A stretch of DNA of 64,000 nucleotides from Acidobacteriota bacterium (lineage in GTDB: Bacteria; Acidobacteriota; Vicinamibacteria; Vicinamibacterales; UBA8438), in NCBI GenBank assembly GCA_009861545.1, contig VXME01000160.1, positions 1-64,000 on the forward strand, written 5' to 3'. How positions within the stretch are numbered: the stretch's first letter is position 1; every line of letters begins with the position of its first letter. Below the pieces are notes generated by a model. It had not been told where the DNA came from. It searched no databases and was given only the letters and a program-made list of their open reading frames with translations. Position numbers and translations under genes: made by a program. Below, piece by piece: positions 17,573-61,890 of the stretch.

Positions 17573-17633
17573 GCACGCTCGGAGCCGCTCCCGGCTGCCT
17601 GTCGCGACCCGCCGGTACGGGGTGTCCGCGCGC

Positions 17634-17639: not shown

Positions 17640-17645
17640 CGCCCG

Positions 17646-27250: not shown

Positions 27251-31690
<4,440 letters not shown>

Positions 31691-34015: not shown

Positions 34016-34047
34016 GAGTCTGCGTCGTGGAAACGGCGTAGACTCCT
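34014..34047 (+). terminator. Strong hairpin overlapping the kinase stop codon (dispersed element, copy 2)
   Basis: AGGAGTCTGCGTCG (34014-34027) pairs with CGGCGTAGACTCCT (34034-34047) across a six-base loop, with one mismatch and one G-U pair. It begins within the TAG stop of the kinase gene. There is no T-run. The left arm is the same element found at 15520 and 62557. Confidence 0.55.
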
Positions 34048-34117
34048 GGTCAGGCCCGGTTGGGCGGCAATCGGAGCCACCGGCGACGAATGTCGGGATA
34101 GCAGGGAGAGCGGCATC

Positions 34118-45191: not shown

Positions 45192-48100
45192 GTGGACGAG
45201 ATCGCAGACACCCCACCCGCTGCGGAGGGAGGCCTCGGCGTTCGGCGCATCCGGAGAGGAATGGGGCTGACGCAGATCCAGTTCGCGGAGCGCCTGGGGG
45301 TTACGCCGCTCACGGTCCATCGCTGGGAATCAGGCCAGTCCCGACCGCAACGCTTGGCGCAGAACCGCCTCCGCGAGTTGGAAGATGCGTTGGCCGGACA
45401 GTCCGCCGACCCGACGTCGGTAGCAGCAACGGCTTCCCTGCCGGCAGTTCCACTCGATTTCGCGGGCGACCCGAACGCCGTATCGGCCGTGGTGGAGGGC
45501 GTGCGCCTGTCCCACGGACACCAGTTCAACCCGGCGTTCGCCACGGAGATCTCGCGCATCGACCCGCTGCCCCACCAGCGCATCGCGGTCTACGAGCGGA
45601 TGATCCCGCAACAACCGTTGCGCTTCCTCCTGGCGGACGACGCCGGGGCCGGCAAGACGATCATGACCGGCCTCTACGTTCGCGAGATGCTGTCCCGCGG
45701 CCGGATTCGCCGGGTCCTCGTCGTGCCTCCGGCCGGCCTCGTGGGCAACTGGGAACGCGAGTTGCGGACACTGTTCCGCCTGCCGTTTCGCATCGTCTCC
45801 AGCGCGGGCGCGTCCCGATCCGCGGTGGATCGCGTGACGGCGGCCAACCCGTTCCGCGGACCGGGAAGCGACCTCGTGATCGTGTCCCTCGACACCCTTA
45901 CCAGCGAGCGCACGTTCGACGCGCTCCGGCAGCCCACCGTGCCGCCCTACGACCTCGTCGTGTTCGACGAGGCGCACAAGCTCAGCGTCGTCAGGCAGCA
46001 ACATGGCGTGCGCAAGCGCCGGCGGTACGAGCTCGCCGAGGCCCTGGCCGGATGCGCCGGTCCCGCGACCCGGTACGCCGGCCTCGGCTGGTCGGCGCTG
46101 CACCTGCTGTTGTTGACGGCGACGCCGCACATGGGCAAGGACACGCCGTACCACTACCTGTGGCGGCTGCTCGACCCGCGGGTGTTCGCCACCGGAGAAG
46201 CGTTCCGGCGTTTCCCTACGGAGGCGCGCGACCGTCACTTCATCCGCCGGACGAAGGAAGAGATGGTCGGTCTGGACGGAACACCGCTGTACCGGCGGCG
46301 CACGTGCGACACGTTCAGCTACGCCTTGAGCCCCGGCCCCGACGGCGAGCAGGCGCTCTACGACGCCACCACCGCCTACCTCCGGCACGCGTACAACCGG
46401 GCCCTCGACAACCGCCCGGCGGTACGGCTCGCGATGGGAGTCTTCCAGCGGCGGCTCGCCAGTTCGACGCTGGCTGTCCTGCGCTCGTTCGAACGGCGGA
46501 TCAGCAGGATCGAGCAGACCATCGACGACCTGCGTTCCGGGAGGGTCACCACTTCGGAGCTGCAGGGCCGGCAGAAACGGCTCGACCGCGAGCACCACGA
46601 GGATTTCTTCGACACGCACGGCGCCGAAGACGACGCGCGCGATACCGGCGACGGCGAGCGGCACGAAGACTACGAAGACGCGCTGCTCGGGGCGGTGGTC
46701 GCCGTCACGATCGAGGAATTGCAGCATGAACTCGACGTGCTCGCCGACCTCGGCGCGCGGGCGCGCCGGCTGGTCGCTTCCGGCCGGGAGTCGAAGTTCG
46801 AAGCGCTGCGCGAGGTCCTGGAAGATCCGCGCCATGCCGGCGAGAAGTGGCTCGTCTTCACCGAGCACCGGGACACGGCAGACTACCTGGTGCGCCGCCT
46901 GGAGGGATTCGGGTACTCCGGCCAGGTCGGGCAGATACACGGCGGCCTGGCCTGGCCTGCCCGAGAGATCGAGGTCGAGCGTTTCCGGCGCCCGGACGGC
47001 TCCCGCTTCCTCGTGGCGACCGACGCCGCCGGCGAAGGCATCAACCTCCAGTTCTGCCGGCTCATGGTCAACTACGACGTGCCGTGGAATCCGGCGCGCC
47101 TCGAACAGCGCATGGGCCGCATCCACCGCTATGGACAGCGGTGCGACGTGCACGTCTTCAACCTCGTCGCCGGCAGCACGCACGAGGGACGCGTGCTCGA
47201 GGTGCTGCTCGACAAGCTCGACGCCATCCGCACGGAGCTTCGATCCGACAAGGTGTTCGACGTCATCGGACGGCTGTTCGAGAACGGGTCCCTCCGCGAG
47301 CACATGATCGAAGCGCTGACCGACGACGGAGAACGCCGCGTCGTCGACCACGTCACGAGCCGGCTTACCGTAAGCCGCGTCGACGCGGTCGCCGACAACG
47401 AGGCGCGCATCTACGGCCGACCAGGGGAGGTGGCCGAGCGTCTCGGTGGATTGCGGATCGACGTGGAGCGCGAACGCTACCTGCAGCTCCTGCCCGGCTA
47501 CGTCCGGCGCTTCGTCCAGAAGAGCGCCTCGCTGCTCGACTTGCAGATCGACGGTGACCTCGACGGCGTCTTCTCCCTGGCCCCCGGCCGGGCCGGGGCA
47601 CTCGACGCGCTGTTGCCGGCGCTCGAACGCTACCCACCGCCGGCGCGCGAGAACCTGTGCGTCCGGCGGCCCACGACGGACGAGCCCTGCATCTGGCTCC
47701 ATCCGGGCGAACCGGTCTTCGACACGCTGATGGATCAGATCCTGCACACTTATAGGCGCGACGCGCTGCGCGGCGGCATCTTCACCGACCCCAAGGCGGA
47801 CGCCCCCTACCTGTTCCATCTAGGCCTGGCCTCGGTCGAACAGGAACCCGATGACGGCGGACGCTCGAACATGCAACCGACGGCCGGGGACCCGACGGAA
47901 CCGGGCACGTCCCGGATCCTGGAGCGGCGCCTGTTCGGACTGCGGCACGCGGGCGACGGCGCGTTGAATGAATCTCCCGTGGAGCATCTGCTGCTGCTGC
48001 ATGGCGCCCCCGGCGTCGCGCCGGGAGCGGTGTCGCTCGCTGGTCGGGGCATCGGCATGCGGGCAACGGCGGCCGCGTACGCCGAGCACGACCTCTCGAC

Positions 48101-48821
48101 ACGGATGGTCGAGGACCGCCGGGCCGCGTTGCGCACCGAATTGCCGGTGCGCTGCCACCGGATCGGTGCAGGTTTCGATCTGCGCGCCGCGGAGCTGGCT
48201 GGCCGGCGCGCGAAGCTGGCCGCCGGCACCGGACGCGATGCTACGGACGGCGAACTCGACGCGATCAAGCAGGAGCAGCGGGCGCTCTCCACGGAACGAC
48301 GGGAGGTCCTCGCCCGAACCGAGACCGCACCCGAACGGATCGTGGCTGGCGAAGTTCACTTTCTCGCCCATGCCCTCGTCGTGCCCGCCCGCGCCTCCGA
48401 CGAGCTGCAACGCTACGATGCTCGTGTGGAGGAGATCGCGGTGCGCATCGCCACCGCGTGGGAGCAGGAGCGGGGCGGCACCGTGCGCGACGTCTCCCGA
48501 CCCGCTGCCGCCCGTCTCGCCGGCCTGCCCGACTGGCCCGGGTTCGACCTGCTCGCCGCCCAGCCGAACGGCGACGTGCGGAACATCGAAGTCAAGGGGC
48601 GGGCCGGCGAATCGGCCATCCAGATGGAGCTCAACGAGTGGAAACAGGCGTGCCATCTGGAGGACCGCTACTGGCTATACGTGGTCTTCGACTGCGCGAC
48701 ACCCGACCCGCGCCTCGTCCGGGTGCGCGATCCGTTCCGCCGACTGCTGGCGAAGAGCCGCGAGTCGTCCGTCTACGTCATTTCCCCAAGGTCGTTGCTC
48801 GACGCCGCGGAGCCGGCTTGA
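45192..48821 (+). CDS. SNF2-type helicase with N-terminal HTH and C-terminal DUF3883 domain
   Basis: A 1209-residue protein, first gene of the island operon. Residues 15-60 are an Xre-type helix-turn-helix (MGLTQIQFAERLGVTPLTVH). The SNF2/DrmD-like ATPase has Walker A LADDAGAGKTIMTGL near residue 150, motif II VVFDEAHKLS near 258, motif III LTATPH, and helicase-C motifs TDAAGEGINLQFC and RLEQRMGRIHRYGQ. The C-terminus is a DUF3883-type domain (NGDVRNIEVKGRAG, near residue 1135) with a nuclease-like E-x-K signature and RYWLYVVFDC. SNF2 helicases of this type are core parts of DISARM and related systems that act on invading DNA. The GTG start has no clear ribosome site, and the HTH could also autoregulate the operon. 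An alternative ATG inside the HTH would damage it. Confidence 0.9.
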   Translation: MDEIADTPPAAEGGLGVRRIRRGMGLTQIQFAERLGVTPLTVHRWESGQSRPQRLAQNRLRELEDALAGQSADPTSVAATASLPAVPLDFAGDPNAVSAVVEGVRLSHGHQFNPAFATEISRIDPLPHQRIAVYERMIPQQPLRFLLADDAGAGKTIMTGLYVREMLSRGRIRRVLVVPPAGLVGNWERELRTLFRLPFRIVSSAGASRSAVDRVTAANPFRGPGSDLVIVSLDTLTSERTFDALRQPTVPPYDLVVFDEAHKLSVVRQQHGVRKRRRYELAEALAGCAGPATRYAGLGWSALHLLLLTATPHMGKDTPYHYLWRLLDPRVFATGEAFRRFPTEARDRHFIRRTKEEMVGLDGTPLYRRRTCDTFSYALSPGPDGEQALYDATTAYLRHAYNRALDNRPAVRLAMGVFQRRLASSTLAVLRSFERRISRIEQTIDDLRSGRVTTSELQGRQKRLDREHHEDFFDTHGAEDDARDTGDGERHEDYEDALLGAVVAVTIEELQHELDVLADLGARARRLVASGRESKFEALREVLEDPRHAGEKWLVFTEHRDTADYLVRRLEGFGYSGQVGQIHGGLAWPAREIEVERFRRPDGSRFLVATDAAGEGINLQFCRLMVNYDVPWNPARLEQRMGRIHRYGQRCDVHVFNLVAGSTHEGRVLEVLLDKLDAIRTELRSDKVFDVIGRLFENGSLREHMIEALTDDGERRVVDHVTSRLTVSRVDAVADNEARIYGRPGEVAERLGGLRIDVERERYLQLLPGYVRRFVQKSASLLDLQIDGDLDGVFSLAPGRAGALDALLPALERYPPPARENLCVRRPTTDEPCIWLHPGEPVFDTLMDQILHTYRRDALRGGIFTDPKADAPYLFHLGLASVEQEPDDGGRSNMQPTAGDPTEPGTSRILERRLFGLRHAGDGALNESPVEHLLLLHGAPGVAPGAVSLAGRGIGMRATAAAYAEHDLSTRMVEDRRAALRTELPVRCHRIGAGFDLRAAELAGRRAKLAAGTGRDATDGELDAIKQEQRALSTERREVLARTETAPERIVAGEVHFLAHALVVPARASDELQRYDARVEEIAVRIATAWEQERGGTVRDVSRPAAARLAGLPDWPGFDLLAAQPNGDVRNIEVKGRAGESAIQMELNEWKQACHLEDRYWLYVVFDCATPDPRLVRVRDPFRRLLAKSRESSVYVISPRSLLDAAEPA

Positions 48822-48832
48822 ACAGCAGAACG

Positions 48833-50110
48833 ATGGACACGCAGGCGCTCATGTCCTCCATTCGGGCCGGTGAAGACACTGATCTGGAATTGAAGGAGGT
48901 CGTCTTCCGGGGAGACCGGATCGCGTTCGGATCGGAAACCGGCCGCGCCGCGTCAAAGCTCGCGGAGGTCTTCGTCAGCATGGCGAACACCCGTGGCGGA
49001 ACTCTCGTCATGGGGGTCCGTGACGCCGACCGCGTCGTGGTCGGCGTCGATCCTCGAAAGCGCGATCTCCTGGAGCAGTTCGTGGTCAACGTCGCGACCA
49101 CCAACTGCAACCCGCTCATCGTCCCGGCGCTGAACTGGGAATACCTGCCAGGAGACGACGATGAACCGAAGCTCTGCCTGATCATCGACGTCCCGGTGTC
49201 GCGGTTCGACGTCCACCAGACCGGCGACGGGCGATTCCTGCAGCGCATCGGCAGCCACCGCCACCCGATTCCCCCCGAACGACTGTCGCGGATGTTCAGC
49301 GCACGGCGGATGATCGACCCGATCAAGGAGCGGCCGGTATTCGGCAGCCGCCTGGACGATCTGCACGAGTTGCGCCTCGAAACGTACTTCCGCAACCGTT
49401 TTCCGGAATGGACCAGGCCTGGAGACTGGACCTCGACGCTGCTGGCCCACAAGCTCGCCGCCACCACTGACGCCGGCGTGATTCCGACCCATCTGGGAGT
49501 ACTGCTGTTCGCGGAACGCCCCGAGCGGCACCTCCCCGGCGCCTACATCGACGTCGCGGCCTATCGGCATGGCGCGGCCGATGGGAATACCTCGGACAGC
49601 CGACAAGTCACGGGACCGCTGCCTGAACAGATAGGACAGGTTCTGACCTATTTCGGGTCTTCTCCCTTGATCCCGACCGCGTCCAGAAAGGACCGCGACG
49701 GCCGCCGCGATTTCCCGAGTTACGTGCACACGGCGCTGCAGGAAGCCGTGGTGAACGCCGTCGTGCATCGCGACTACGAAGTCAGGGGGTCCCAGATCAT
49801 CATCCGGCTTTTCCATGATCGCATCGAGTTCCAGAACCCGGGCGCGCTCTACAACACGCTGACGATCGAGAACGTCTACGCCGGTTGCCAGCCTGCCCGC
49901 CGCAACCAGTTCCTGGCCGGGTTCATGCGCGACTACAAGAGCGCGCTCACCGGGACCAGCTACATGGAAGCCCGCGGCGAAGGTTTTCTGAACCTGGTAC
50001 GGGACAGCCAGCGGCTGTCCGGGCGGCGACCCGAGCTCGAGCAGATCGGACAGGCTACGAAGTTGACGATCTACGCCGCGACGTACGAGGACGACCGCGA
50101 TGTCGTATGA
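48833..50110 (+). CDS. AlbA_2 (Schlafen-like) domain protein with HATPase_c_4 domain
   Basis: A 425-residue protein. The N-terminal AlbA_2 fold is seen in GEDTDLELKEVVFRGDRIAF and FVSMANTRGGTLVMGVRDAD. A middle linker follows, then a GHKL-type ATPase region of the HATPase_c_4 family (HTALQEAVVNAVVHRDYEVR and FHDRIEFQNPGAL). Such proteins are annotated as ATP-dependent helicase- or transcriptional-regulator-like and are frequent in defence islands; the AlbA_2 domain is related to the Schlafen nuclease core. The ATG at 48833 lies 11 bases after the helicase stop, and the ribosome site is weak, suggesting coupling. Confidence 0.87.
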   Translation: MDTQALMSSIRAGEDTDLELKEVVFRGDRIAFGSETGRAASKLAEVFVSMANTRGGTLVMGVRDADRVVVGVDPRKRDLLEQFVVNVATTNCNPLIVPALNWEYLPGDDDEPKLCLIIDVPVSRFDVHQTGDGRFLQRIGSHRHPIPPERLSRMFSARRMIDPIKERPVFGSRLDDLHELRLETYFRNRFPEWTRPGDWTSTLLAHKLAATTDAGVIPTHLGVLLFAERPERHLPGAYIDVAAYRHGAADGNTSDSRQVTGPLPEQIGQVLTYFGSSPLIPTASRKDRDGRRDFPSYVHTALQEAVVNAVVHRDYEVRGSQIIIRLFHDRIEFQNPGALYNTLTIENVYAGCQPARRNQFLAGFMRDYKSALTGTSYMEARGEGFLNLVRDSQRLSGRRPELEQIGQATKLTIYAATYEDDRDVV

Positions 50111-50122
50111 CAGGGACGACAC

Positions 50123-50309
50123 ATGACAGAATCACAAGTGGTCGCTGTCGTTGATCGTCGACCCTCTGAACCAGCAACTGAAGAAGCTGTCCGCCGACCG
50201 GCTGAGTGACTCGCGCAACGAATACGCAGTTCCAGATGAAAGCCATGTGGCAAGGCACGTGTGGAAGGACAGCAACCACTATTTATCACTATTTCAAAAG
50301 AGAGGTTGA
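50123..50309 (+). pseudogene. Small frameshifted gene between AlbA_2 and AbiJ-like genes
   Basis: ATG 50123 with GGGA just upstream starts MTESQ. Removing one base near 50138 would join it to an open frame running to TGA 50307-50309, with coding-like content (IVDPLNQQLKKLSADRL, ESHVARHVWKDSNHYLSL). As sequenced, the ATG frame ends early at 50216. The second frame has only a TTG (50151) as start, giving 52 residues. The stop lies one base before the next gene's GTG, as expected for a coupled small gene. It may be a real small gene with a frameshift, or one using TTG. No family recognised. Confidence 0.4.
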
Positions 50310-50310
50310 T

Positions 50311-51273
50311 GTGCCGATACTCGACATCTTCTCAAAACGACAGATGAAACTCCGGGGTGACGTGCCGGACGTGTACTCGTACGACGTTCTTCCTGAGCCG
50401 CTCAAGGTGCAGATAGTGCACATAGTGTTGGGCGCCCTTGGAAATCCACAGGAGTACTATTCCTCCGTCCAATATGAAGATAGTCAAGTACGAGCAACTT
50501 ATAAGGCTATCGTAGATATTCTGTGTCGAGAGTACGGGGTATTTCGACTTCCTGAAGAGCATCATGACCACGGGGAACGAATGTACCTGCAGGAACTCGT
50601 GAACTTCTTTCTTCAGGAAAAGAACGTCGAACGATCTCTGGACGTCGTCGAGTTGTGTTTTCGCGTCATTGATCAGGGAACCAGAGACTGGAGATACATG
50701 AGGAGGTCCAACGCGTCTGGTGTGGCGGACGACGCGTTGCGAGAGATCAATGAGCGGTTCCAGGAGCACGGCGTGGGGTACTGCTTCCAGAACGGACGAA
50801 TCGTCCGCATCGATTCACAACTGATCCATTCGGAAGTCGTCAAGCCGGCCCTCACACTTCTCAGCGGGAAACACTACGCTGGCGCACAACAGGAGTTCCT
50901 GAATGCTCATGAGCACTACCGGGCAGGCAAAGCCAAGGAGGCGCTCAACGAATGCCTGAAGGCGTTCGAGAGCACGATGAAGACCGTGTGCGACCGGCAA
51001 GGGTGGACCTACGAACAGAACGCAACCGCCAAAAAGCTACTTGACATTTGTTTCGACAACGGACTGGTTCCCGCGTTCTGGAAGCAGCATTTCTCTGCGC
51101 TGCGAAGCCTACTGGAGAGCAGCGTGCCGACCGGACGGAACCGACTCAGTGGTCATGGTCAAGGATCCGTGCCGACGTCCGTTCCCGCATTCCTGGTCGG
51201 CTACGTGCTGCACATGACGGCGGCGGCAATTGTCTTTATGGGAAAGGCTGAACAAAGCGGAGCGAAGAAGTGA
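50311..51273 (+). CDS. STM4504/CBY_0614-type protein with AbiJ N-terminal domain 4
   Basis: A 320-residue protein. The N-terminal half matches the AbiJ-NTD4 pattern: DIFSKRQMKLRGDVPDVYSY, DVLPEPLKVQIVHIVLGALG, CREYGVFRLPE, ELVNFFLQEKNVERSLDVVE. The C-terminal half is a helical region (HEHYRAGKAKEALNECLKAF) like those found with abortive-infection domains. Established knowledge links AbiJ-type domains to phage-induced cell arrest; the biochemical activity is unknown. GTG 50311 is chosen because AGAGG lies five bases upstream and it begins the conserved motif. Its stop overlaps the methyltransferase start (GTGA). Base composition is clearly less GC-rich than the neighbours, a sign of separate acquisition. 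Confidence 0.82.
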   Translation: MPILDIFSKRQMKLRGDVPDVYSYDVLPEPLKVQIVHIVLGALGNPQEYYSSVQYEDSQVRATYKAIVDILCREYGVFRLPEEHHDHGERMYLQELVNFFLQEKNVERSLDVVELCFRVIDQGTRDWRYMRRSNASGVADDALREINERFQEHGVGYCFQNGRIVRIDSQLIHSEVVKPALTLLSGKHYAGAQQEFLNAHEHYRAGKAKEALNECLKAFESTMKTVCDRQGWTYEQNATAKKLLDICFDNGLVPAFWKQHFSALRSLLESSVPTGRNRLSGHGQGSVPTSVPAFLVGYVLHMTAAAIVFMGKAEQSGAKK

Positions 51274-54200
51274 AAGACCGCCGCCTCATCGAAACCGCCT
51301 TCCCCCTGAAACAGGTTTCCCTGGACTCCGTCCACGAGAAGAACGTCCGGCACGGGCACATATCCACGCTGCACATCTGGCCCGCGCGGCGGCCGCTGGC
51401 AGCCAGCCGCGCGACGCTGCTGGCGACGCTGCTCCGCGATTCGGAGAACCAGGAGGAAGGCGACAAACTGCTCGCTCGGATGGCCGGAACCGTGGAGCCG
51501 GCGCCGTCCGGCCGGGTAGCAGGCCGCGGGAAACGGGACCGGAAGGAAACGCGAGGCGGAATCCTGCACTGGGGACGGGAGAGCGAGCCGGAGGGCGCAG
51601 CCGAACTCGACCGGTTTCGGTCCGAGATTCGAGCCGCGTTCGGCGGACGGGCGCCGCGGGTGCTGGATCCGTTCGCTGGCGGCGGGGCGATTCCACTGGA
51701 GGCGATGCGTCTCGGGTGCGAGACGGTAGCGGCGGACCTCAACCCCGTGGCATGGTTCATCCTCCGGTGCACGCTGCACTATCCGCGGCTGCTGGCCGGC
51801 CGGAAGCGACCGTTGCCGGCGTATGCCGCGGGCGACCGCGCGTTCGCCGAGGCGTTTCTGAAGGCGCAGGGCATTCGACGGACCGCGGCGTTGCGGGAAG
51901 CGTTGGCACGGCTGGGACACGGCGACGGCGAGCCGGTACAGGCGGCAACACTAGCCGACGGGGAGTCTCCGGCCTCGAACGCGGGCGCCGCGTGGCATCT
52001 GCGGGCCTGGGGACGACATGTGCTGGCGGCTGCTCGGCGTGAGCTGGCGACCCGCTATCCGACTTACGCTGAGTTCGAACCGGTGCGGCGGAAGGGGCGG
52101 CGGAAAGTCGGAGCGGTCGGAAACGTGCGCTGGCGGCGGCGGCCGCCGTTGCTGCTGGAACCGGACGCCGACGGGCGGGTATCGACCACATCGCTCAACA
52201 CCGAGTTCGACTCGCTCTATCTGGAAAACGAAGCCAATCCCCGCTGGATCGCCAAGCCGGCCGTCGCGTATCTGTGGGCGCGCACGGTCCGCTGCGGCGG
52301 CTGCCGGGCCGAGATTCCGCTGCTGAAGACCCGCTGGCTCTGCAAGAAGGCGAAGAAGCGGGTTCGGCTCATCCTGGAACCGCGGATGGACCGTAGCGGC
52401 GTGGACTTCGGCATCGAACGGGACGTTCCCGACGACAGCGGGAACGCCGCGCAGAAGCGCGAGCACGATCGGACGCTAGGCGCGGGCACCATGAGCGCGA
52501 GCGGCGCCCGCTGCCCCGCCTGCGGCGCGATCGCGACGACGAAGGACATCCGCGCGGAAGGACTGGCGGGACGGCTCGGGGAACGCATGACGGCAGTCGT
52601 CGTGGAGGGCCAGACGGGCAAGGAGTACCGCCTGCCGACGGCGGCGGAACTCGACGCGGCGCGCGTGGAGCGGGCGGAGATCGAAGCGCTCTACGCCGGC
52701 GTCCCGTTCGGCCTGCCGGACGAGTCCATCGTCGCGGAGCGGCCGTCCCCCAACTCGCGAGGCGCGTCCGGTCTCCCGCGCTACGGGTTCGACACGTGGC
52801 GCACGCTCTTCACGGACCGGCAGCTTCTGGCGCTCGGCACGTTCGTCCGCGCGATCCGCGGCTGCGCCGCGGCGATGGGTGACTACCCGGACGAGTGGCG
52901 CGAGGCAATCGTCGCCTGGCTGGCGCCTTCGATCAGTCGATTGGCCGACAGAGGCAGCGCGGTGGCCACCTGGACCAACAACCTCGAACAGATTCGCAAC
53001 ACCTTCGCACGCTTCGCCCTGCCGATGGTCTGGGACTTCGCGGAGTCCTGTCCACTGGCCGACACGACCGGCGGCTTCATCCAGGCCGTCGAGTGGATCG
53101 CCCGGGTGGTCGAGCACACGGAGACGGCCACCGCCGCGGCGCCCCCACCCCGCGTGGAGCAGCGGTCGGCGACCGAGGCGCGGCAGGATCGTTTCGACCT
53201 CGTGTGCACGGATCCGCCCTACTACGACGCCATCCCCTACTCCGACCTGATGGATTTCTTCCACGTCTGGCTGCGGCGCACGCTGCACGGGCTTTCGCCG
53301 GACGTCGACGCCGCCTTCGCCGCGCCGCTCGGACCGAAGTGGAACGCCGGCGCGAACGACGGCGAGCTGGTCGATCAGCCGGGCCGCTTCGGTACGGACA
53401 AGGCACAATCCAGGCAAGCGTACGAAGACGGCATGCTGCGCACGTTCCGCCGCTGCCACGACGCGCTTCGGGACGACGGGCGGCTGGTCGTCGTGTTCGC
53501 CAACAAGCAGCCCGCGGCCTGGGCGACGCTGGTGTCGGCGCTGATCCGGGCCGGCTTCGTCGTCGACGCCTCGTGGCCGATCCAGACGGAGCGGGACAGC
53601 AAGGTCGCGGGCGGTGCGCGCCTGTCGTCCTCCATCTGGCTCGTCTGCCGGAAGCGCGCCCCAACGGCCCGCCCCGGCTGGGACAACCGAGTGCTGGCCG
53701 ACATGCAGGCGAACGTCACCGAGCACCTGCGCGCCTTCTGGGACGCCGGCATTCGCGGACCGGACTTCGTCTGGGCGGCGACCGGGCCGGCGCTGGAGGC
53801 GTTCAGCCGGCATCCGGCGGTCAGGAAAGCCGACGCTCCGGGCCGGCTGCTGACCGTCGACGACTTCCTGCGCCGCGTGCGGCGGATGGTGGTCGGGTTC
53901 GTCGTCAGTCGGCTCCTTGACCAGCAGGCAGGCGCCACCGGCGAGCTCGACGATCCGACCACCTACTACCTGCTGCACCGCAAGGACTTCGGCCTCGCCC
54001 CGGCCCCCGCTGGCGCCTGCATCCTGTACGCCTTGTCGTGCAACGTGTCGGACGCCGACCTGGCCGGGCGGCTGGACCTGCTCGCCGGCGGACGATCTAC
54101 CTCCACGGACGAGGATGGCGACGAGAACGGTGACACATCGGGCAGCGACGTGCGCCTCAAGACGTGGAGCCAGCGCCGCGCCCGCGACCTGGGCGAGCCG

Positions 54201-54476
54201 TCGCCGGACGGCAGCCCGCCACCCCTCGTCGACTGCGTCCACAAGCTGATGCAGCTCTGGAGGTCCGGCGAGCAGAGTCGCGTGGACGCCTACCTCGAAG
54301 CGCGCGGGTTGTGGCGGCACGAGATCTTCGCCCGCGTCGTGCAGGCCGTCACCGAGCTGGCGGAACGGGGATCGGACGAACGCAAGTTGCTGGAGTCCAT
54401 CCAGACCCACGTCCGGACCCACGGCGGCGCCGCCGTTCCGCGTTCCATGAGGTTCGACTACGGAGACGCGTCATGA
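51270..54476 (+). CDS. DUF1156 DNA methyltransferase of defence islands
   Basis: A 1068-residue methylase. The N-terminal DUF1156 domain reads RRLIETAFPLKQVSLDSVHE and HIWPARRPLAASRATLLATL. The SAM-binding motif is DPFAGGGAIPLEAMRLGCE near residue 132, two Zn-ribbon-like Cys pairs are CGGC and CPACG, and the catalytic motif IV is CTDPPYYDAIPYSDLMDF near 645. DPPY motifs indicate N6-adenine or N4-cytosine methylation. Such methylases occur with DUF499 ATPases and SNF2 helicases in DISARM-related loci, marking self DNA. The GTG start overlaps the upstream stop and has GGAG in front. Confidence 0.92.
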   Translation: MKDRRLIETAFPLKQVSLDSVHEKNVRHGHISTLHIWPARRPLAASRATLLATLLRDSENQEEGDKLLARMAGTVEPAPSGRVAGRGKRDRKETRGGILHWGRESEPEGAAELDRFRSEIRAAFGGRAPRVLDPFAGGGAIPLEAMRLGCETVAADLNPVAWFILRCTLHYPRLLAGRKRPLPAYAAGDRAFAEAFLKAQGIRRTAALREALARLGHGDGEPVQAATLADGESPASNAGAAWHLRAWGRHVLAAARRELATRYPTYAEFEPVRRKGRRKVGAVGNVRWRRRPPLLLEPDADGRVSTTSLNTEFDSLYLENEANPRWIAKPAVAYLWARTVRCGGCRAEIPLLKTRWLCKKAKKRVRLILEPRMDRSGVDFGIERDVPDDSGNAAQKREHDRTLGAGTMSASGARCPACGAIATTKDIRAEGLAGRLGERMTAVVVEGQTGKEYRLPTAAELDAARVERAEIEALYAGVPFGLPDESIVAERPSPNSRGASGLPRYGFDTWRTLFTDRQLLALGTFVRAIRGCAAAMGDYPDEWREAIVAWLAPSISRLADRGSAVATWTNNLEQIRNTFARFALPMVWDFAESCPLADTTGGFIQAVEWIARVVEHTETATAAAPPPRVEQRSATEARQDRFDLVCTDPPYYDAIPYSDLMDFFHVWLRRTLHGLSPDVDAAFAAPLGPKWNAGANDGELVDQPGRFGTDKAQSRQAYEDGMLRTFRRCHDALRDDGRLVVVFANKQPAAWATLVSALIRAGFVVDASWPIQTERDSKVAGGARLSSSIWLVCRKRAPTARPGWDNRVLADMQANVTEHLRAFWDAGIRGPDFVWAATGPALEAFSRHPAVRKADAPGRLLTVDDFLRRVRRMVVGFVVSRLLDQQAGATGELDDPTTYYLLHRKDFGLAPAPAGACILYALSCNVSDADLAGRLDLLAGGRSTSTDEDGDENGDTSGSDVRLKTWSQRRARDLGEPSPDGSPPPLVDCVHKLMQLWRSGEQSRVDAYLEARGLWRHEIFARVVQAVTELAERGSDERKLLESIQTHVRTHGGAAVPRSMRFDYGDAS

Positions 54477-54605
54477 ACGACCCGCTCGACGGACATCCAC
54501 GATACGATCACCGTCGATCAGCGACATGCGAGGTTCATCCGTGCGAGCGGGCGGACACCCCACACTGCGACTGATGCGCCCAGACTACCGACCGCAGGAC
54601 ACCCG
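54473..54605 (+). pseudogene. Vestigial reading frame between methylase and AAA ATPase genes
   Basis: ATG 54473 overlaps the methylase stop (ATGA) but gives only 33 codons. After six codons the next frame becomes coding-like (DIHDTITVDQRHARFIRASG) and stays open, in phase with the ATPase ATG at 54606, with no start codon of its own. This looks like the frameshifted or truncated N-terminus of a lost gene, or an abandoned longer ATPase start. No family assigned. Confidence 0.3.
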
Positions 54606-55910
54606 ATGATTCGCCGCATACAAGCGCTGAACTACCGCTGTTTTCGGTATGTCGACGTCTCGCTCGACCGCTTCCACGTCCTGGTCGGCCCCAACGCGAG
54701 CGGCAAGAGCACGTTGTTCGACGTCGTCTCTTTCCTTGGGGACATGATGCGGGATGGACTCCGGGCAGCGATAGACAGCCGCACTCGAAACTTCCAGGAT
54801 CTGGCCTGGGGACGCCCAGGAGTCGATCCGCGATTCGAGCTGGCAGTGGAAATGACGATTCCGGAGCTGGTGAGAAGACAACTTCCAAAAGGACCAACTG
54901 GAGAAGATTTCCAGGCGTTTCGTTACGAAGTGGCGATCGAGGAGCGCGGCGGCGAGGTGAGCGTCGCACGCGAACGCGGACTCCTGGCAGGGGATCCAGC
55001 ACGGCCGACTCGGCGGCGCAGCCCCCGGTTTCCGGAGAATTCCAAGGTTCCCACTACGATAACGAACGGTGGCGGGAAGCGCGGGTCACGAACCGTGTTC
55101 AGTCAGGAGCGGCAAGGCGGACGCGTGTTCCGCCCGGAAACCACCCCACGGGCCAGAAAGAATCCGGTGACAGGTATTCCTTTCGGATCGTCAGGATTGG
55201 CGGCGTCACCCGGCAACATATCGAGCGCATTGTATCCTGCGGCCTCTCACGTCATATACATGCTCGCCGGCTTCGGCGGCGGAGTCGTACTCGATGGCTC
55301 GCGTCTGCGCCGCGCCAGCTCTCTCGACAGCGACCGGGCGTTCACCCGCGATGGAGCAAGTCTGCCGTGGAACGTACGGTACCTTCAGGAAATACAGGAA
55401 GACGACTACCGGGAATGGATCCGACACGTGCAGACAGTGCTTCCCGAGCTGGAAGGCGTCCGTGTGGTCGAACGCGAGGACGACCGTCACGCGTATCTCA
55501 TGCTGCGCTACGCAAACGGCGTCGAGGTCCCCTCCTGGATGACTTCCGACGGCACCCTCAAGCTTCTGGCTCTGACGCTGCTCGCCTACCTGCCCGTGGC
55601 GGACTCGTACCCGAGTGACCGGCGGTTCCTTCACGAAATCATCCTGGTCGAGGAGCCGGAAGACGGCGTTCATCCGCTGGCGCTCGATGCCATCTACGAC
55701 TCGCTGGCCTCGGTCTATGGCGGTCAGGTTCTCGTGACCACGCATTCGCCGACGCTCCTGGGGCTGGCCAAGCCGGAAGAGGCTCTCTGCTTTGCCAGGA
55801 CGGCCGACGGCGCCATAGACATCGTCCGGGGAACTGAGCACCCTCATCTGAAGGACTGGCACGGGACCGCGGACATGGACTTGCTCTTCGCCACGGGCGT
55901 GATCGGGTGA
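54606..55910 (+). CDS. AAA ATPase of the OLD/AriA-like class inside the island
   Basis: A 434-residue ATPase starting RRIQALNYRCFRYVDVSLDR. Walker A GPNASGKST is near residue 29, Walker B ILVEEPEDGVHPLALD near 347 and the switch QVLVTTHSPTLLGLAKPEE. The signature region is TSDGTLKLLALTLLAYLP. A basic, Gly/Arg-rich insert occupies residues 130-200. It resembles the ATPase at 13394-14767 and, like it, is followed by a small TOPRIM-like gene (13 bases later). By analogy with OLD, Gabija and PARIS-type pairs it may sense phage factors and activate the partner. Confidence 0.87.
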   Translation: MIRRIQALNYRCFRYVDVSLDRFHVLVGPNASGKSTLFDVVSFLGDMMRDGLRAAIDSRTRNFQDLAWGRPGVDPRFELAVEMTIPELVRRQLPKGPTGEDFQAFRYEVAIEERGGEVSVARERGLLAGDPARPTRRRSPRFPENSKVPTTITNGGGKRGSRTVFSQERQGGRVFRPETTPRARKNPVTGIPFGSSGLAASPGNISSALYPAASHVIYMLAGFGGGVVLDGSRLRRASSLDSDRAFTRDGASLPWNVRYLQEIQEDDYREWIRHVQTVLPELEGVRVVEREDDRHAYLMLRYANGVEVPSWMTSDGTLKLLALTLLAYLPVADSYPSDRRFLHEIILVEEPEDGVHPLALDAIYDSLASVYGGQVLVTTHSPTLLGLAKPEEALCFARTADGAIDIVRGTEHPHLKDWHGTADMDLLFATGVIG

Positions 55911-55923
55911 TCGTGGTCTCCAG

Positions 55924-56556
55924 ATGAAAGATCTACTTGTGCTCGTTCCCGACGCGGATATCGAGCAGGCAATGAAGGGCCTCCTCGTCCGCACCGACAA
56001 CATCGACATCGCACCCGTGGACTTCGAAATCCGACGACACGTCAACAGGGATAGCGGATGCAGGGCCAACGCGGCCAGTTACCTGCAGCCGTATTTGAGG
56101 GCGTATCGTTACGCACTGGTTACATTCGACCGTCACGGTTGTGGAAGCCGGGGGACACGTGAAGAAATCCAGGAAGAAGTCGAGAGCGATCTGACGCGCA
56201 ACGGTTGGGAGAACCGGTCGAAAGTCATCGTCATCGATCCAGAGATTGAGGTCTGGGTATGGAGTCGCTCACCGGTAGTGGCGGCAGTGCTGGGCTGGGG
56301 CAACGATTTCGAGGCGCTTCGACGCTGGTTGGTATCGGAGAATCTATGGGCTCCCAATCACCGCAAACCGCAAGACCCGAAGGACGCGATGCGGAAGGCA
56401 ATGGAACGGGCGAGGCTCCGGCCGAAGGCCCGCCGGTCTCCGAGCAAGTTTCGCGATCTCGCGACATTGGTGGACTTCACCGATTGTGAGGACCCGTCCT
56501 TTGTCGAGCTCACGCGCACCCTGCGCGCCTGGTTCCCGCCCGAGACAGAACGATGA
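55924..56556 (+). CDS. TOPRIM/DUF4276-like partner of the island AAA ATPase
   Basis: A 210-residue protein. Acidic positions fit a degenerate TOPRIM arrangement: LLVLVPDADIEQAMKGLL, then YALVTFDRHGCGSRGTRE, then KVIVIDPEIEVWVWSRS, like the E-x-W motif of DUF4276. The C-terminal part is Arg-rich and helical. It lies between the AAA ATPase and DUF499 genes; its stop overlaps the DUF499 start (ATGA). Sequence similarity to the partner at 12789-13397 is only at motif level. A nuclease role is inferred from the pair architecture. Confidence 0.65.
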   Translation: MKDLLVLVPDADIEQAMKGLLVRTDNIDIAPVDFEIRRHVNRDSGCRANAASYLQPYLRAYRYALVTFDRHGCGSRGTREEIQEEVESDLTRNGWENRSKVIVIDPEIEVWVWSRSPVVAAVLGWGNDFEALRRWLVSENLWAPNHRKPQDPKDAMRKAMERARLRPKARRSPSKFRDLATLVDFTDCEDPSFVELTRTLRAWFPPETER

Positions 56557-59500
56557 CCAAGACGAACCGCCTCCAGCCCTGGCACACAGTCGTTCGCCTT
56601 AAGGAAGAACTGCGGACTGGTGAGCTTGCGCTCGCCGAATTCGCCGCCGACCTGCACGAGGTCGCGCAGGCGCAGGGACGCCGGCCGGTCTACGAGGACC
56701 CGGCGAAGTTCTTCGCGCTGACCTATCCCACCCACGCGTTGCGCGAGTTGGTGAAGGACGTTGCGGCACGGCTCGCCGGACGGAGCGACAAGGCGGTGCG
56801 GCAGCTCGAGCTGACCTACGGCGGCGGGAAGACGCACACGTTGATCACGCTCCATCATCTGTTCCGCGATCCGCGCGCACTGCCGGATCTGCCCGCGGTG
56901 CAGGAGTTCCGCGAGCACGTCGGCATGGATCTGCCGGCGGCGTTCCCGGTAACGCTCTGTTTCGACAAGATCGACGCCGAGCGCGGTGTCGAGGGAGTGC
57001 GCGGTCCGGATGGGGAAACCCGCACTCTGCGCCATCCGTGGAGCGTGCTGGCGTTCCAGCTCGCCGGCGCGGATGGACTGCGCGCAATACACGCCGACGG
57101 GCTGGATGCGGAGCGGGAGACGCCGCCCGCGGAGCCGCTGCTGGCCGCACTGCTGGAGGTCCCCCGCCGGCGCGGGCTGGCGACCCTGGTTCTGGCCGAC
57201 GAGGTCTTGATGTACGCCCGCGAGAAGGCGGGCCTCGATCCCGTCTGGCGCGGGCGCATCGTCGATTTCTTCCAGTATCTGACACAGGCCGTGGGCAAGG
57301 TCGACACCGCGGCGATGGTCGCCTCGATACTCGCGACCGACCCGCACAAGCAGCGCGGCGAGCTGGGCAGCCGGCTGACCTCCGATCTGTCCGACGTGTT
57401 CCGGCGGCAACGCGAGGAGGGCGTGCAACCCGTACAAAAGGAAGACGTGCCGGTCGTGCTGCGCCGGCGCTTCTTCGAACCCGACGACATCCGCAGCCTC
57501 GATGGATTCCGTTCGCACGTCATCGGCATCGTGCGGGATCTGGCGAAGCTGGAAGAAACCACCGCCAGGAACCGATCGGCGGCCGAGGAGCGCTTTATCG
57601 CGAGCTTTCCCTTTCACCCCGACCTGACCGACGCTTTCTACAGCCGCTGGACCCAGCTCGAAGGATTCCAACGGACGCGCGGTATCCTGCGCACGCTGGC
57701 GACCGCACTGCGCGAGGCCGAGCGGTGGGATACCGCGCCGCTGATCGGTCCGTCGGCCCTGTTGGCCGCGCCTGACAAGCCGGGAATCTCGGAAGCGGTG
57801 CGCGAGCTCGCCGGCGTCGCCACGTCCGGAACGGTCGAGGGTAGCCACACCGACTGGAGCACGCTGCTCGAAGCCGAGCTGGAGAAGGCCCGCCAGATCC
57901 AGCACGAGTCGCCGGCCCTGCGTCCCGGCCGGGAGGCCGAGCAGGCGGTGGTCACCGTGTTTCTGCATTCGCAGCCGACCGGCAGGAAGGCATACACGCC
58001 GGAGTTGATTCGGATGGCCGGCAGCACCGCTCCCGACGGCATCGAGCTGGAGAAGGGGCTGCGCCGCTGGCGCGAGATTTCGTGGTTCCTCGACGACGAG
58101 GACGCGGACCTGGACGCGGGAAGCGCTACGCCGGCGCTGCCGAAGTCGTGGCGCCTCGGCAACCGCCCCAACCTGCGCCAGATGCACGACGAGGCGTGCC
58201 AGCAACGAGTCAGTCAGGAAAAGGTGGACGAGCGGCTCCGCGAAGAAATCCGCGGTGCACGAACGCTCACCGACGGCGCGAAGGCGGTGGGCGCCACCAT
58301 CCACCTGCTGCCGGGCTCACCCAGAGAGGTCGGCGACGACGGCAGTTTCCGCTACGTCGTCATGGACGCCGGCGCCGCGTCCGAGTCCGGGAAGCCGAGC
58401 AGTGCGGCGAAGCGGGTGCTGGACGAGACGACCGGACCCGACCGGCCACGCGTCCATCGCAACGCGGTGGTCCTGGCGGTCCCGTCGCGCGACGGCCTGG
58501 AAGCGGCGCACGCCGCCGTCCGGGCCCTCCTCGGCTGGGAAGACGTCGCGGGACAGCTCGAGGCCCACCAGGTCGACCCGTTCCAGGCGGAGCGCCTGCG
58601 ACGGCGGCTCCGGGAGGCCCGGGAGCGCGTTCCGGAGATCGTCCGCCAAGCGTATGCCGTGGTCGTGACGGTGAACGAGCAGAACGAGGTGCAGGCGTTC
58701 AAGCTGCCGGCGGGCGCCGGACCGCTCTTTCCCGCCATCAAGAACGACGAGCGGGCGCGCATCAAGGAGACGGCGGTGGACGCCGAGGCGCTGCTGCCCG
58801 ACGGTCCGTACGACCTGTGGCACGACGACGACGCCCGTCGCGTGACGGATCTGGTGGGCGCCTTCGCGCGTTATCCGCGCCTGCCGAAGCTGCTGCACCC
58901 GAAGGTCCTGCTCGATACGGTGCTGCAAGGCGTGGAGCGTGGCCTGTTCGTCGCGCGGCTGGTCCGTCCGGACGGCAGCGCCCGGACGTGGTGGCGTGAA
59001 GCCGTCGGCCCGGAAGCGCGCCAGGATCCGCTCCTTGAAGTCGTCCTGCCCGACAGATGCGAGCTCGGCGCCCTGTCCGGTGCCCTGCTCGGCCCCGGCG
59101 TCCTGCCGGAGTTGTGGAGCGACGGGCAGGTGACCATCAGCGCGCTCCGCGAGTACTTCGCGGGAGGGCGCACGGTGCGGGTTTCCCGAGAAGGCTACGA
59201 AGAAACGCAGGTCATCCCGGAATGCAATGAACAGGCCGTTCACGAAGCCGTGCGCGGCGCGGTCGAGCAGGGCGTGGTCTGGCTCACGAACGGTCCCGCC
59301 TCGGTCTGGAAGGAACAGATCCCCTACGGCGTGCTCGATGACGACGCCGTCCTGCACCCCCGACCGGATCCCATCGCCGCCCAGGAGCTCGCCGCGAACG
59401 CGCTGCCCGGCGCCTGGCGCGACGGCACGACCAACGGCGTCACGCTGGCGCGGGCGCTCTCGCAGTCCCGGCGCAGAACGCTGCCCTGGGGTCTCGTACG

Positions 59501-59858
59501 CGAAGGCATCAAGGCCGGTGTGGAGAGCCGCTGGATCGAAGTGGCCGACGGCAGCGTCGCCGTGCACTGCCGGTACGACGAAGCAGGGCAGTTGCGCCTG
59601 AAGCGCCCGGAAACGATAGTCGATCCCGCCACCCCGCCGCCCGTTCCGTCCGTTACGGGAGTGGTGCTCGAGGGCTCTCAGATCCAGGATCTCGCCGAAC
59701 TGATCCCGAAGTTGCTGGAGGCGAGCGCCGGCAACGACTTGCGCTTTCGTGTCGGCGCAACGCTGAACCAGGATGCTGACGGGCACGTCTCGGAGAGCGT
59801 CAGGGCCGCGCTGGACGCGCTGCTCGCCACGGTGTCCGCGGAACTGAAGATCGAATAG
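56553..59858 (+). CDS. DUF499-family ATPase
   Basis: An 1101-residue AAA-type protein, last gene of the island. The N-terminus reads KTNRLQPWHTVVRLKEELRT. Walker A is LTYGGGKTHTLITLHHLF near residue 89 and Walker B GLATLVLADEVLMYAREK near 211. The C-terminal half contains helical and winged-helix-like regions (LRRWREISWFLDDEDADLDA). DUF499 ATPases pair with DUF1156 methylases in phage-defence loci and are likely DNA-translocating or complex-assembling factors. ATG 56553 overlaps the upstream stop. The gene ends about 80 bases before the remnant that marks the right junction. No terminator hairpin was recognised. Confidence 0.9.
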   Translation: MTKTNRLQPWHTVVRLKEELRTGELALAEFAADLHEVAQAQGRRPVYEDPAKFFALTYPTHALRELVKDVAARLAGRSDKAVRQLELTYGGGKTHTLITLHHLFRDPRALPDLPAVQEFREHVGMDLPAAFPVTLCFDKIDAERGVEGVRGPDGETRTLRHPWSVLAFQLAGADGLRAIHADGLDAERETPPAEPLLAALLEVPRRRGLATLVLADEVLMYAREKAGLDPVWRGRIVDFFQYLTQAVGKVDTAAMVASILATDPHKQRGELGSRLTSDLSDVFRRQREEGVQPVQKEDVPVVLRRRFFEPDDIRSLDGFRSHVIGIVRDLAKLEETTARNRSAAEERFIASFPFHPDLTDAFYSRWTQLEGFQRTRGILRTLATALREAERWDTAPLIGPSALLAAPDKPGISEAVRELAGVATSGTVEGSHTDWSTLLEAELEKARQIQHESPALRPGREAEQAVVTVFLHSQPTGRKAYTPELIRMAGSTAPDGIELEKGLRRWREISWFLDDEDADLDAGSATPALPKSWRLGNRPNLRQMHDEACQQRVSQEKVDERLREEIRGARTLTDGAKAVGATIHLLPGSPREVGDDGSFRYVVMDAGAASESGKPSSAAKRVLDETTGPDRPRVHRNAVVLAVPSRDGLEAAHAAVRALLGWEDVAGQLEAHQVDPFQAERLRRRLREARERVPEIVRQAYAVVVTVNEQNEVQAFKLPAGAGPLFPAIKNDERARIKETAVDAEALLPDGPYDLWHDDDARRVTDLVGAFARYPRLPKLLHPKVLLDTVLQGVERGLFVARLVRPDGSARTWWREAVGPEARQDPLLEVVLPDRCELGALSGALLGPGVLPELWSDGQVTISALREYFAGGRTVRVSREGYEETQVIPECNEQAVHEAVRGAVEQGVVWLTNGPASVWKEQIPYGVLDDDAVLHPRPDPIAAQELAANALPGAWRDGTTNGVTLARALSQSRRRTLPWGLVREGIKAGVESRWIEVADGSVAVHCRYDEAGQLRLKRPETIVDPATPPPVPSVTGVVLEGSQIQDLAELIPKLLEASAGNDLRFRVGATLNQDADGHVSESVRAALDALLATVSAELKIE

Positions 59859-60081: not shown

Positions 60082-60347
60082 CGGGAAGTCAGGCCCGCAG
60101 GACGACGCGGCCGATCACCCGGCCCGCCCGCAAGTCGTCGAGCGCCGCCTGCGCCGCGGCGAGAGGGCGTTCGTCGATCGGCAGCTCGGGAATCGATCCG
60201 GAGCGGCCCAGGGCCAGCAACTCCCCCATCTCGGCCGGGCTGCCGACGTAGGAGCCGCGTATCGTCAGGTGCTTGAGCGGCAGCAGCGGCAACGAGAGCC
60301 TCAGGGCGCCCCCGAAGAGCCCCACCACGATGAGCGTGCCGCCCGGC
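60082..60347. repeat. Right direct repeat flanking the defence island
   Basis: Matches the left copy at 44504-44769 in the same orientation, including 96 identical bases at 60164-60259. It is the 3' end of the intact alcohol dehydrogenase gene. Confidence 0.9.
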
Positions 60348-61138
60348 GCCAGCGCACCGAGGGCGAAGGCGGCCGACCGCTCCGACCCCACGAAGTCGAT
60401 GGCCGCCGCCACCCCGCCGCCGGTGCGCCTTCGAACCTGCTTGACGGCATCGGGCGCCGACGTGTCGAACGTCTCGGCCGCACCGCGCGTGCGGGCAAGC
60501 TCCAGCCGCGCAGCGTCGACGTCGGCGCACAGCACCGGCGTATCCGTCAGCGCGGGGGCGAGGCCGACCGCGGCCATCCCGACACCGCCGAGGCCGACGA
60601 TCAACAGCTCTCCGGACGCCGCGCCCGACGCCGCCTTGCGGAGCGCGCCGTATGCCGTGAGGCCGGAGCATGAGTACGTCGCCGCGAGGGCCTCGCGCAG
60701 CGGCGCGTACTCGAACAGGCACCGCGGATGCGGCAACAGGACGTGGTCCGCGAAGCCCCCGGCGCGCCCGACGCCGACTGGCTGGCCGGTCGGGCAGAGG
60801 TGCTCGTCGCCGGCCGCGCACCGCGGGCAGTGGCCGCACCCGAGCCAGGGGTAGACGACGCGCCGGTCGCCCTCGGAGACGCCGGCCGCAGCGGGACCGG
60901 CCGCCACCACCTCGCCCGCGATCTCGTGGCCGAGGGTATGCGGCAGGTCCCTGCCCCGCGTCAGATCGAGCCGCTTTCCGTCGCCGAGATCGAATGCCCC
61001 CTCCCACAGGTGGATGTCGCTGTGGCAGACGCCGCACGCGCCGACCCGCAGGAGGACCTCCTCACCGCGCGGCTCCGGCAGCGCCGCTTCCGTCCGCTCC
61101 AGCGGCTCGCCGTACGCGGTCACCTGATGGCTCAGCAT
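60089..61138 (-). CDS. Zinc-dependent alcohol dehydrogenase (MDR superfamily)
   Basis: A 349-residue medium-chain dehydrogenase. The catalytic Zn site is in RVGACGVCHSDIHLWEG and HTLGHEIAGEVVAAG. The structural Zn loop is GCGHCPRCAAGDEHLC. The NAD(P) fold has LLIVGLGGVGMAAVGLAPAL, and the end is GSYVGSPAEMGELLALGRSG. It oxidises an alcohol or reduces an aldehyde; the substrate is not evident. The ATG at 61138 overlaps the methyltransferase stop by seven bases, so GNAT, methyltransferase and dehydrogenase form one operon. A decayed copy of this operon lies at 44511-44990. Confidence 0.93.
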   Translation of the reverse strand: MLSHQVTAYGEPLERTEAALPEPRGEEVLLRVGACGVCHSDIHLWEGAFDLGDGKRLDLTRGRDLPHTLGHEIAGEVVAAGPAAAGVSEGDRRVVYPWLGCGHCPRCAAGDEHLCPTGQPVGVGRAGGFADHVLLPHPRCLFEYAPLREALAATYSCSGLTAYGALRKAASGAASGELLIVGLGGVGMAAVGLAPALTDTPVLCADVDAARLELARTRGAAETFDTSAPDAVKQVRRRTGGGVAAAIDFVGSERSAAFALGALAPGGTLIVVGLFGGALRLSLPLLPLKHLTIRGSYVGSPAEMGELLALGRSGSIPELPIDERPLAAAQAALDDLRAGRVIGRVVLRA

Positions 61139-61890
61139 GGTCGATCACTCCGCCGGCCGGCCGCCGGCGGCGAGTCGTCACGCGTCGCCAGGCCGTGCAG
61201 GAAAAAGTTGGAGGTGCCGCGCACGACGGCAGACCAGCCGAGCGTACGCAACTGCGCCTCCAGCTCGTCCGGTCGGTGAAAGATCTTCACGATCTCGAAC
61301 TCGCGCCCGTCCCGCAGACGGCGGCGGCTGCGGGACGGCGGCGCGGCGGGAGCCCGGGCATCGTAGCCCCCCTCGCGGGCAGCCGGATGGTTGCGGCTGT
61401 CGACGAAGAAGACCCTCCCGCCCGGCGCCAGCGCCCGCGCCACCAGGCTCCAGAACGGGATGAACGCCCCCGCCGGCACGTGCGACAACCAGAAGCCGAA
61501 GAACACGAAGTCGTACCGCCGGACCGGCTCCCACGCGAACAGATCGGCGCAGACGTAGTCGATGTGCGCCGCGCCCGTACGCGCCCGGTTGAGGGCGATC
61601 ACCTCGGGCGAGGCGTCGACGCAGGTCAACGCCGCCGCCCGCGGGGCGAGCCGCTCGGTCCACAGACCCGTGCCGCAGGCCAGCTCCAGCATCCGGCCGG
61701 ACGGCTGCGCCGCGTCGAGGGCCCGCCGCAGCTCGCCGACCTCGTCGCGCCAGCGCCGATTCCACTCGGGACCGTGGTCGTACTCCCCACGGCGAAAGAA
61801 CCAGTCGTCGTACTCCGGCGCCCGCGCCCGGTAGTAGGCAACCTGCTCGGCGAGGACGCGCTGCTCCTCGCCGCCGTCCGCCGCACTCAC
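61132..61890 (-). CDS. Class I SAM-dependent methyltransferase
   Basis: A 252-residue methyltransferase. YYRARAPEYDDWFFRRGEYD leads to motif I MLELACGTGLWTERLAPRA, with VDASPEVIALNRAR and later DFVFFGFWLSHVPAG and APGGRVFFVDSRN. The pattern matches bacterial small-molecule methyltransferases of the Methyltransf_25 type. GTG 61890 overlaps the GNAT stop (GTGA) and begins SAADGGEEQRVLAEQ; the longer frame is shadow sequence. It is the middle gene of the operon and is absent from the decayed left copy. Confidence 0.88.
   Translation of the reverse strand: MSAADGGEEQRVLAEQVAYYRARAPEYDDWFFRRGEYDHGPEWNRRWRDEVGELRRALDAAQPSGRMLELACGTGLWTERLAPRAAALTCVDASPEVIALNRARTGAAHIDYVCADLFAWEPVRRYDFVFFGFWLSHVPAGAFIPFWSLVARALAPGGRVFFVDSRNHPAAREGGYDARAPAAPPSRSRRRLRDGREFEIVKIFHRPDELEAQLRTLGWSAVVRGTSNFFLHGLATRDDSPPAAGRRSDRPC

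Follow-up and report, generated by a model that had tools for sequence, protein, structure and literature searches.

We analysed a 64,000-nucleotide stretch of DNA from an Acidobacteriota bacterium (contig VXME01000160.1, positions 1 to 64,000; hereafter the window), which carries a defence locus of seven intact open reading frames, all on the plus strand, at 45192-59858. We are highly confident of its composition: an Hma core whose two gaps hold three nested modules. The first, fourth and seventh genes are identified from their sequences as HmaA, HmaB and HmaC, which places the core among the Hma or Type-1 BREX-related (BR) systems, known antiviral systems of three genes and relatives of BREX. 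Hma was defined in 2021 by Payne et al. (PMC8565338) and was reclassified in 2026 as Type-1 BR, a DUF499-centred group (PMC12839542). We refer to the gap between HmaA and HmaB as slot 1 and to the gap between HmaB and HmaC as slot 2, the slots thus lying between Hma genes.

An earlier annotation made from the letters alone, the sequence-only reading, had described seven intact genes on one strand, as we also find, joined by four-base overlaps or gaps mostly under 20 bases. The spacing is as described for four spacers but not for the other two: from the first gene to the last, spacers of 11 bp and 200 bp are followed by a 4-bp overlap, then by spacers of 129 bp and 13 bp and a second 4-bp overlap, with the 200-bp and 129-bp spacers both at module boundaries. 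Its domain calls, checked here against Pfam, NCBIfam and PADLOC profiles, were upheld with the exception of TOPRIM, which no profile backs. The AbiJ-type gene begins at 50311 and not at 50206, and its homologues share the same first residue. Promoter, terminator and Rfam scans of the locus gave no signal above chance.

Table 1. Genes and other features of the Hma locus in the window, and positions of retropepsin-like genes in related loci.
Feature	Position	Strand	Remarks
HmaA, core gene A: XRE-HTH, SNF2 helicase and C-terminal NOV_C/PD-(D/E)XK nuclease (predicted)	45192..48821	+	start GTG
Schlafen AlbA_2 + HATPase_c_4 protein, slot-1 module	48833..50110	+	start ATG; Pfam SLFN_AlbA_2, HATPase_c_4
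Spacer with C-terminal remnant of retropepsin-like gene	50111..50310	+	translation VDPLNQQLKKLSADRL
AbiJ_NTD4-DUF7014 protein (STM4504/CBY_0614 family), slot-1 module	50311..51273	+	start GTG; NF046078
HmaB, core gene B: DUF1156 amino-methyltransferase	51270..54476	+	start GTG; PADLOC, Pfam DUF1156
MAD3-like OLD-ABC ATPase, slot-2 module	54606..55910	+	NF047739; PADLOC HEC-01A, mad3
MAD4-like small partner, putative TOPRIM-type nuclease, slot-2 module	55924..56556	+	NF047734
HmaC, core gene C: DUF499 AAA+ ATPase without N-terminal HEPN fusion	56553..59858	+	PADLOC
Island edge scar: degraded, deletion-ridden direct copy of right-flank ADH-MTase-GNAT segment	44504..44990	.	identity 89%, 84%, 94%
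Retropepsin-like slot-1 genes of related loci	L070 7982, L072 8105, L074 7710, L075 3359, L084 3132		
Retropepsin-like slot-1 genes of related loci, remainder	L086 3820, L087 2822, L088 4133, L101 6309		

The first protein has HmaA as its top PADLOC match (530 bits, best of 63 families), and Pfam places HTH_3, SNF2, Helicase_C and NOV_C domains on it. The motifs LLADDAGAGKT (the SNF2 Walker A), FDEAH, GFD..IEVKGR and TQxxxA..RWE are kept in at least 90% of 61 homologues, and the NOV_C match together with the GFD..IEVKGR motif predicts an active PD-(D/E)XK nuclease at the C-terminus. An XRE-type helix-turn-helix (XRE-HTH) at residues 17-52 is fused to the SNF2 helicase and lies outside the PADLOC HmaA match; its TQxxxA..RWE motif is retained throughout this HmaA clade (at least 90% of the 61 proteins). 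Pfam reports this XRE-HTH and no TUDOR match at the HmaA N-terminus, the published TUDOR call being structure-based, and the XRE-HTH is a possible autoregulator of the operon. HmaB is recognised by PADLOC as the top match (371 bits) and by Pfam DUF1156, and its DPFAGGG and DPPYYD motifs are found in at least 95% of 80 homologues. HmaC likewise has its own model as top PADLOC match with 243 bits, the match beginning at residue 7, and its Walker A motif YGGGKTH is conserved among homologues; its DUF499 domain is found by NCBIfam and PADLOC and not by Pfam. The helicase, nuclease, methylase and ATPase motifs named here are ones that an active system should have.

The sequence-only reading had taken this core to be DISARM-like, and the SNF2 helicase does resemble DrmD, with 320 bits against the NCBIfam model and 291 bits against the PADLOC model. 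The former score is, however, only about half of the 610-bit cut-off and HmaA is a far better match; moreover, the methylase is a DUF1156 HmaB, and DrmA, DrmB (DUF1998) and DrmC (PLD) drew only weaker helicase cross-matches among the seven proteins. The same reading had also noted that drmB/DUF1998, PLD and HerA partners are lacking, and none of them appeared among the seven proteins. A DISARM variant is exceedingly improbable, and DISARM membership was rejected on the want of these defining features.

The arrangement was compared with related loci obtained by scanning species genomes with HmaB and keeping the best 80, which represent the neighbourhood of this HmaB and not all Hma. The slot counts take each locus as independent, an assumption that holds only approximately given phylogeny, and because the gene caller gives less weight to the minus strand, counts of insert co-direction lean that way. 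The order HmaA, HmaB, HmaC on one strand recurs in 68/68 loci with all three genes visible, and the arrangement is therefore not a product of chance. Slot 1 is longer than 400 bp in 64/74 loci, slot 2 in 47/74; both are filled in 40 of the 68 and neither in 6, and the inserts are co-directional (125/131 and 73/75). Their content includes Schlafen proteins, OLD pairs, TIR, SMODS, KAP, GmrSD, Fic, zeta toxin, PIN, HEPN and YhcG. OLD-type ATPases occupy slot 2 in 21/74 loci versus slot 1 in 7/74 (Fisher p = 0.006), and of the 21 slot-2 loci 20 have a partner of 166-216 aa called directly downstream of an OLD ATPase; the MAD4 partner in locus L114 was detected by tblastn. Four sequence types of partner were distinguished: p194, which is found 13 times in slot 2 versus 0 in slot 1 (p = 0.0001), MAD4, and two that we take to be DUF4276-like and DUF3226-like. 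Locus L106 holds two OLD-ATPase pairs in tandem within one slot 2 (13480-17843; the p194 type, then MAD3-MAD4).

The genome of the window contains a second Hma locus on contig G000:C125 (L003 11058-19968, L067 965-10510), whose core is 55% (HmaA), 61% (HmaB) and 54% (HmaC) identical to that of the window. It uses the same two gaps with other cargo: slot 1 holds Gabija (GajA 649 bits, GajB 761 bits), followed by a HEC-01A-like ATPase and a gene that we read from its sequence as TIR-like, and slot 2 holds a PDC-M07A-like ATPase with a 194-aa partner.

The slot-1 modules of the window are a Schlafen protein and an AbiJ-type protein. Schlafen homologues are present in slot 1 of 10/74 related loci and in slot 2 of 4/74. 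The Schlafen AlbA_2/HATPase architecture has been described as a backup RNase, and at least 1017 taxa have been reported to carry such proteins next to BREX and BR loci (PMC12839542). The AbiJ-type protein matches NF046078 with 389 bits against a cut-off of 150 and carries the sequence RNxxxGHG, which we infer to be a HEPN RNase-type motif; R-x5/6-HG is retained in 5/5 aligned homologues. No homologue of this gene was found in the 80 related HmaB loci, and in the phylum elsewhere 5/5 inspected loci of the family are not near Hma. Distant AbiJ_NTD4-type proteins that match PDC-S32 do occupy slot 1 of L076 and L092, and the window protein matches PDC-S32 weakly (32 bits). The gene has a GC content of 54.5% and a GC3 of 65%, compared with about 70% and 86% for the core, and of a retropepsin-like gene some 35 terminal codons (~35) remain in the spacer preceding it: the translation VDPLNQQLKKLSADRL matches the end of an intact 171-aa gene in a congener locus (L060) as well as the ends of slot-1 genes in L070, L086 and L088. 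Given its low GC and the adjoining remnant of a decayed gene, the AbiJ-type gene is probably a recent arrival in the locus.

Retropepsin-like aspartic protease genes of ~120 aa (FLVDTGATDSLVP) were observed in slot 1 of 9/74 loci, mostly right after HmaA. The gene is widespread outside Hma and is also present elsewhere in this genome; it was ruled out as an Hma-specific component, with 2 of 12 fetched family loci lying in Hma.

The slot-2 module pairs an ATPase with a small partner. The ATPase is an OLD-type ABC ATPase with AAA_21 and AAA_15 domains that is matched by HEC-01A, AriA and Old models; PADLOC scores are 130 bits for HEC-01A and 80 bits for mad3. The partner, called TOPRIM-like in the sequence-only reading, matches MAD4 families alone (NF047734, 201.6 bits against a cut-off of 160). 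Its AlphaFold2 model, of good confidence (pLDDT 85), has the order b-a-b-a-b-a-b, and its invariant acidic residues are D38, D64 and E102 in alignment A4, equivalent to D43, D69 and E107 when numbering begins at the 55924 start. Fold searches of MAD4 against the PDB and viral libraries, and of its analogue p194 against the PDB, gave no match with E <= 0.001; for MAD4 the viral search lists several DNA primases and an RloB-like protein, none of them significant, and a profile search of MAD4 against solved structures returned calmodulin-type noise only. MAD4 and p194 align weakly yet over their full length with hhalign (probability 49%, P 1.7e-4), and MAD4 showed no link to the DUF4276 and DUF3226 partners. 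Because neither the PDB nor the viral libraries gave a significant fold match, a TOPRIM nature of MAD4 is a plausible reading of the model and not a result. Of 31 pattern matches to MAD4 in viral contigs, 0 were confirmed; phages gave no match and plasmids one distant match.

MAD4-type genes are present in 20 of 396 genomes of the phylum, and MAD3 adjoins MAD4 in 20/20 of these loci, 1 of which (G377) is within Hma. In the MAD3 tree, the nine embedded rows require eight context changes, at least four of them forced by well-supported branches, and the embedded copies cluster no better than shuffled labels and do not form one clade. The tree thus indicates that MAD3-MAD4 entered Hma repeatedly, in several independent captures. 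Since the pair has entered Hma repeatedly and occurs mostly outside it, we regard it as a stand-alone unit and not just as part of a methylation-associated defence (MADS) system. The MAD3 and MAD4 profile matches are what a MADS system would lead one to expect, but these are just two components: other MAD families were found among the seven proteins only as a weak mad2 cross-match of HmaB (E 4e-8), and in the phylum most MAD3-MAD4 pairs have no further MAD genes around them (of 68 proteins neighbouring free pairs, 2 match mad2 and 1 matches mad6). That the locus is a MADS system is hardly credible, and membership was rejected for lack of the defining features.

The sequence-only reading had proposed a single layered system of seven parts. 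A co-evolved seven-component system in which DNA marking is obligatorily coupled to cell arrest would fit the co-directional genes and the two 4-bp overlaps, and L111, L113 and G377 do have six of the seven genes in unchanged order; L111 has the window layout minus the AbiJ gene and nothing extra, the sole exact recurrence among the loci surveyed, and L113 and G377 have extra genes in between. Such a system is nevertheless very improbable. Six surveyed loci have no insert whatever, and the modules assort independently: a Schlafen gene in slot 1 does not go with MAD3-MAD4 in slot 2 more often than chance allows (68 loci, Fisher p = 0.21), and as a linked set they were rejected on this ground. 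The AbiJ homologue, low in GC and beside a gene remnant, is confined to this locus, and MAD3-MAD4 is mostly found away from Hma, the embedded copies not being one clade.

The flanks bear on the history of the island. Ahead of HmaA lies a degraded copy of the ADH-GNAT block, 84-94% identical to the intact block at 60082-62267. Two congeners and three other relatives have an empty site, in which the left-flank AMP-binding gene runs directly into the right-flank ADH-MTase-GNAT block. In congener G396 (L060 11163-13005) a decayed island remnant lies just past this block, comprising a piece of the Schlafen gene (93% identical) that carries an internal deletion, the retropepsin-like gene in intact form, and 156 bp that correspond to the sequence right after the window HmaC. 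From the empty sites, the decayed remnant and the degraded flank copy, we read the island as subject to both gain and loss at about the same place, together with a duplication of the flank. Elsewhere in the window, on the minus strand, 27251-34627 is a 2458-codon open frame of coding-like composition, and 36654-39878 encodes a 1074-aa protein with DUF349 repeats in four stretches.

For the core, a restriction-modification (RM)-like model has been published in which self is marked by the methylase, while scanning falls to the DUF499 ATPase and degradation to the helicase-nuclease (PMC12839542); the backup idea is likewise a published proposal. On balance we favour an RM-like Hma core with exchangeable backup modules, with less confidence in this whole statement than in the composition because the backup action is less sure. 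Each biochemical step, and the backup role, is drawn from protein families and published papers. HmaB would methylate self DNA at some site, HmaC would assemble a scanning complex, and unmarked invading DNA would be degraded by HmaA through its helicase and nuclease. Were this layer to fail or be blocked, the embedded modules would arrest the cell: MAD3 would activate MAD4, the Schlafen protein would cut tRNA, and the AbiJ-DUF7014 protein would act as a HEPN RNase. The XRE-HTH of HmaA may regulate the whole operon. As far as families and papers indicate, the sequence-only reading was right to see in one co-directional locus a restriction or marking core joined by modules that probably arrest the cell.

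Several points weigh against this favoured reading. The locus is known here from sequence alone; the MAD3-like ATPase scores 410.4 bits with NF047739, just below the cut-off of 420; and the nuclease role of MAD4 is weakly based because no solved or viral fold matched significantly. The 200-bp and 129-bp spacers could hold separate promoters; the promoter scan found no sigma-70-like site. The modules could also be independent neighbours: defence systems that share a transcript, their insertion into Hma selected for expression or co-transfer without functional interplay. We consider this a serious though clearly less probable explanation. The great variety of slot content and the independent assortment of modules speak for it; the slot preference of OLD-ABC pairs, however, suggests constraint beyond chance placement, and the co-direction of inserts fits co-expression and interplay equally. 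A bolder version of the backup reading, which we regard as unlikely, makes Hma a dedicated chassis whose two sockets, both under the HmaA XRE-HTH, differ in function: slot 2 would take an OLD ATPase and a small TOPRIM-like partner that senses the failure of Hma through a physical or functional coupling to HmaB/HmaC, and slot 1 mostly RNA-targeting or signalling effectors. If so, the cargo would be interchangeable alarm-and-arrest cartridges and not independent neighbours.

Nested defence genes offer a way to new immune modules. The window, the sister locus and the 80 relatives show that nesting has rules (a fixed core, co-direction and the slot preference of OLD-ATPase pairs), and the question of whether the carrier controls its cargo becomes directly testable. 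The slot preference, the repeated MAD3-MAD4 capture and the conserved XRE-HTH on HmaA appear to be additional to what the published texts consulted contain.

Among named systems, DISARM shares with the locus an SNF2 helicase related to DrmD and a methylase, but the seven proteins lack the DrmA-B-C core. MADS shares the side-by-side MAD3 and MAD4 homologues, but in the window the pair sits between HmaB and HmaC and no other MAD component was seen. PARIS (AriA-AriB) and other OLD-ABC/TOPRIM pairs likewise place a small putative nuclease after an OLD-type ABC ATPase, but MAD4 matches no AriB model and its TOPRIM membership is unproven. The closest likeness is to Hma or Type-1 BR, with HmaA, HmaB and HmaC in one operon, no PLD or PglZ, and an SNF2 helicase with a (predicted) C-terminal PD-(D/E)XK nuclease, a DUF1156 methylase and a DUF499 ATPase; the nuclease on the helicase is what separates Type 1 BR from Types 2 and 3 (PMC12839542). 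The window differs in that its HmaC is without the HEPN fusion published for 1370/2446 taxa and in its three embedded modules. Hma-embedded candidates (HEC) already bear a class name, and antiviral activity is stated to have been tested for some of them in PMC12988326, which cites the Payne et al. 2024 preprint as the source of the HEC and PDC genes; their models are in PADLOC 2.0. The window differs from HEC in that its small partner matches mad4 and not HEC-01B, but resembles it in that MAD3 matches HEC-01A at 130 bits, that AbiJ-type slot genes of other loci match PDC-S32, and that extra defence genes lie between Hma genes both here and across the 80 loci. The sequence-only reading did not recognise the arrangement as described, and for the exact set of genes this holds, but Hma-embedded modules, with Schlafen and OLD-ABC/TOPRIM backup effectors in such loci, are already published (PMC8565338, PMC12839542, PMC12988326). 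Because Hma-embedded candidates are already a named class, the locus is a fresh example of known nesting, which is found again in many bacteria, and not a new system.

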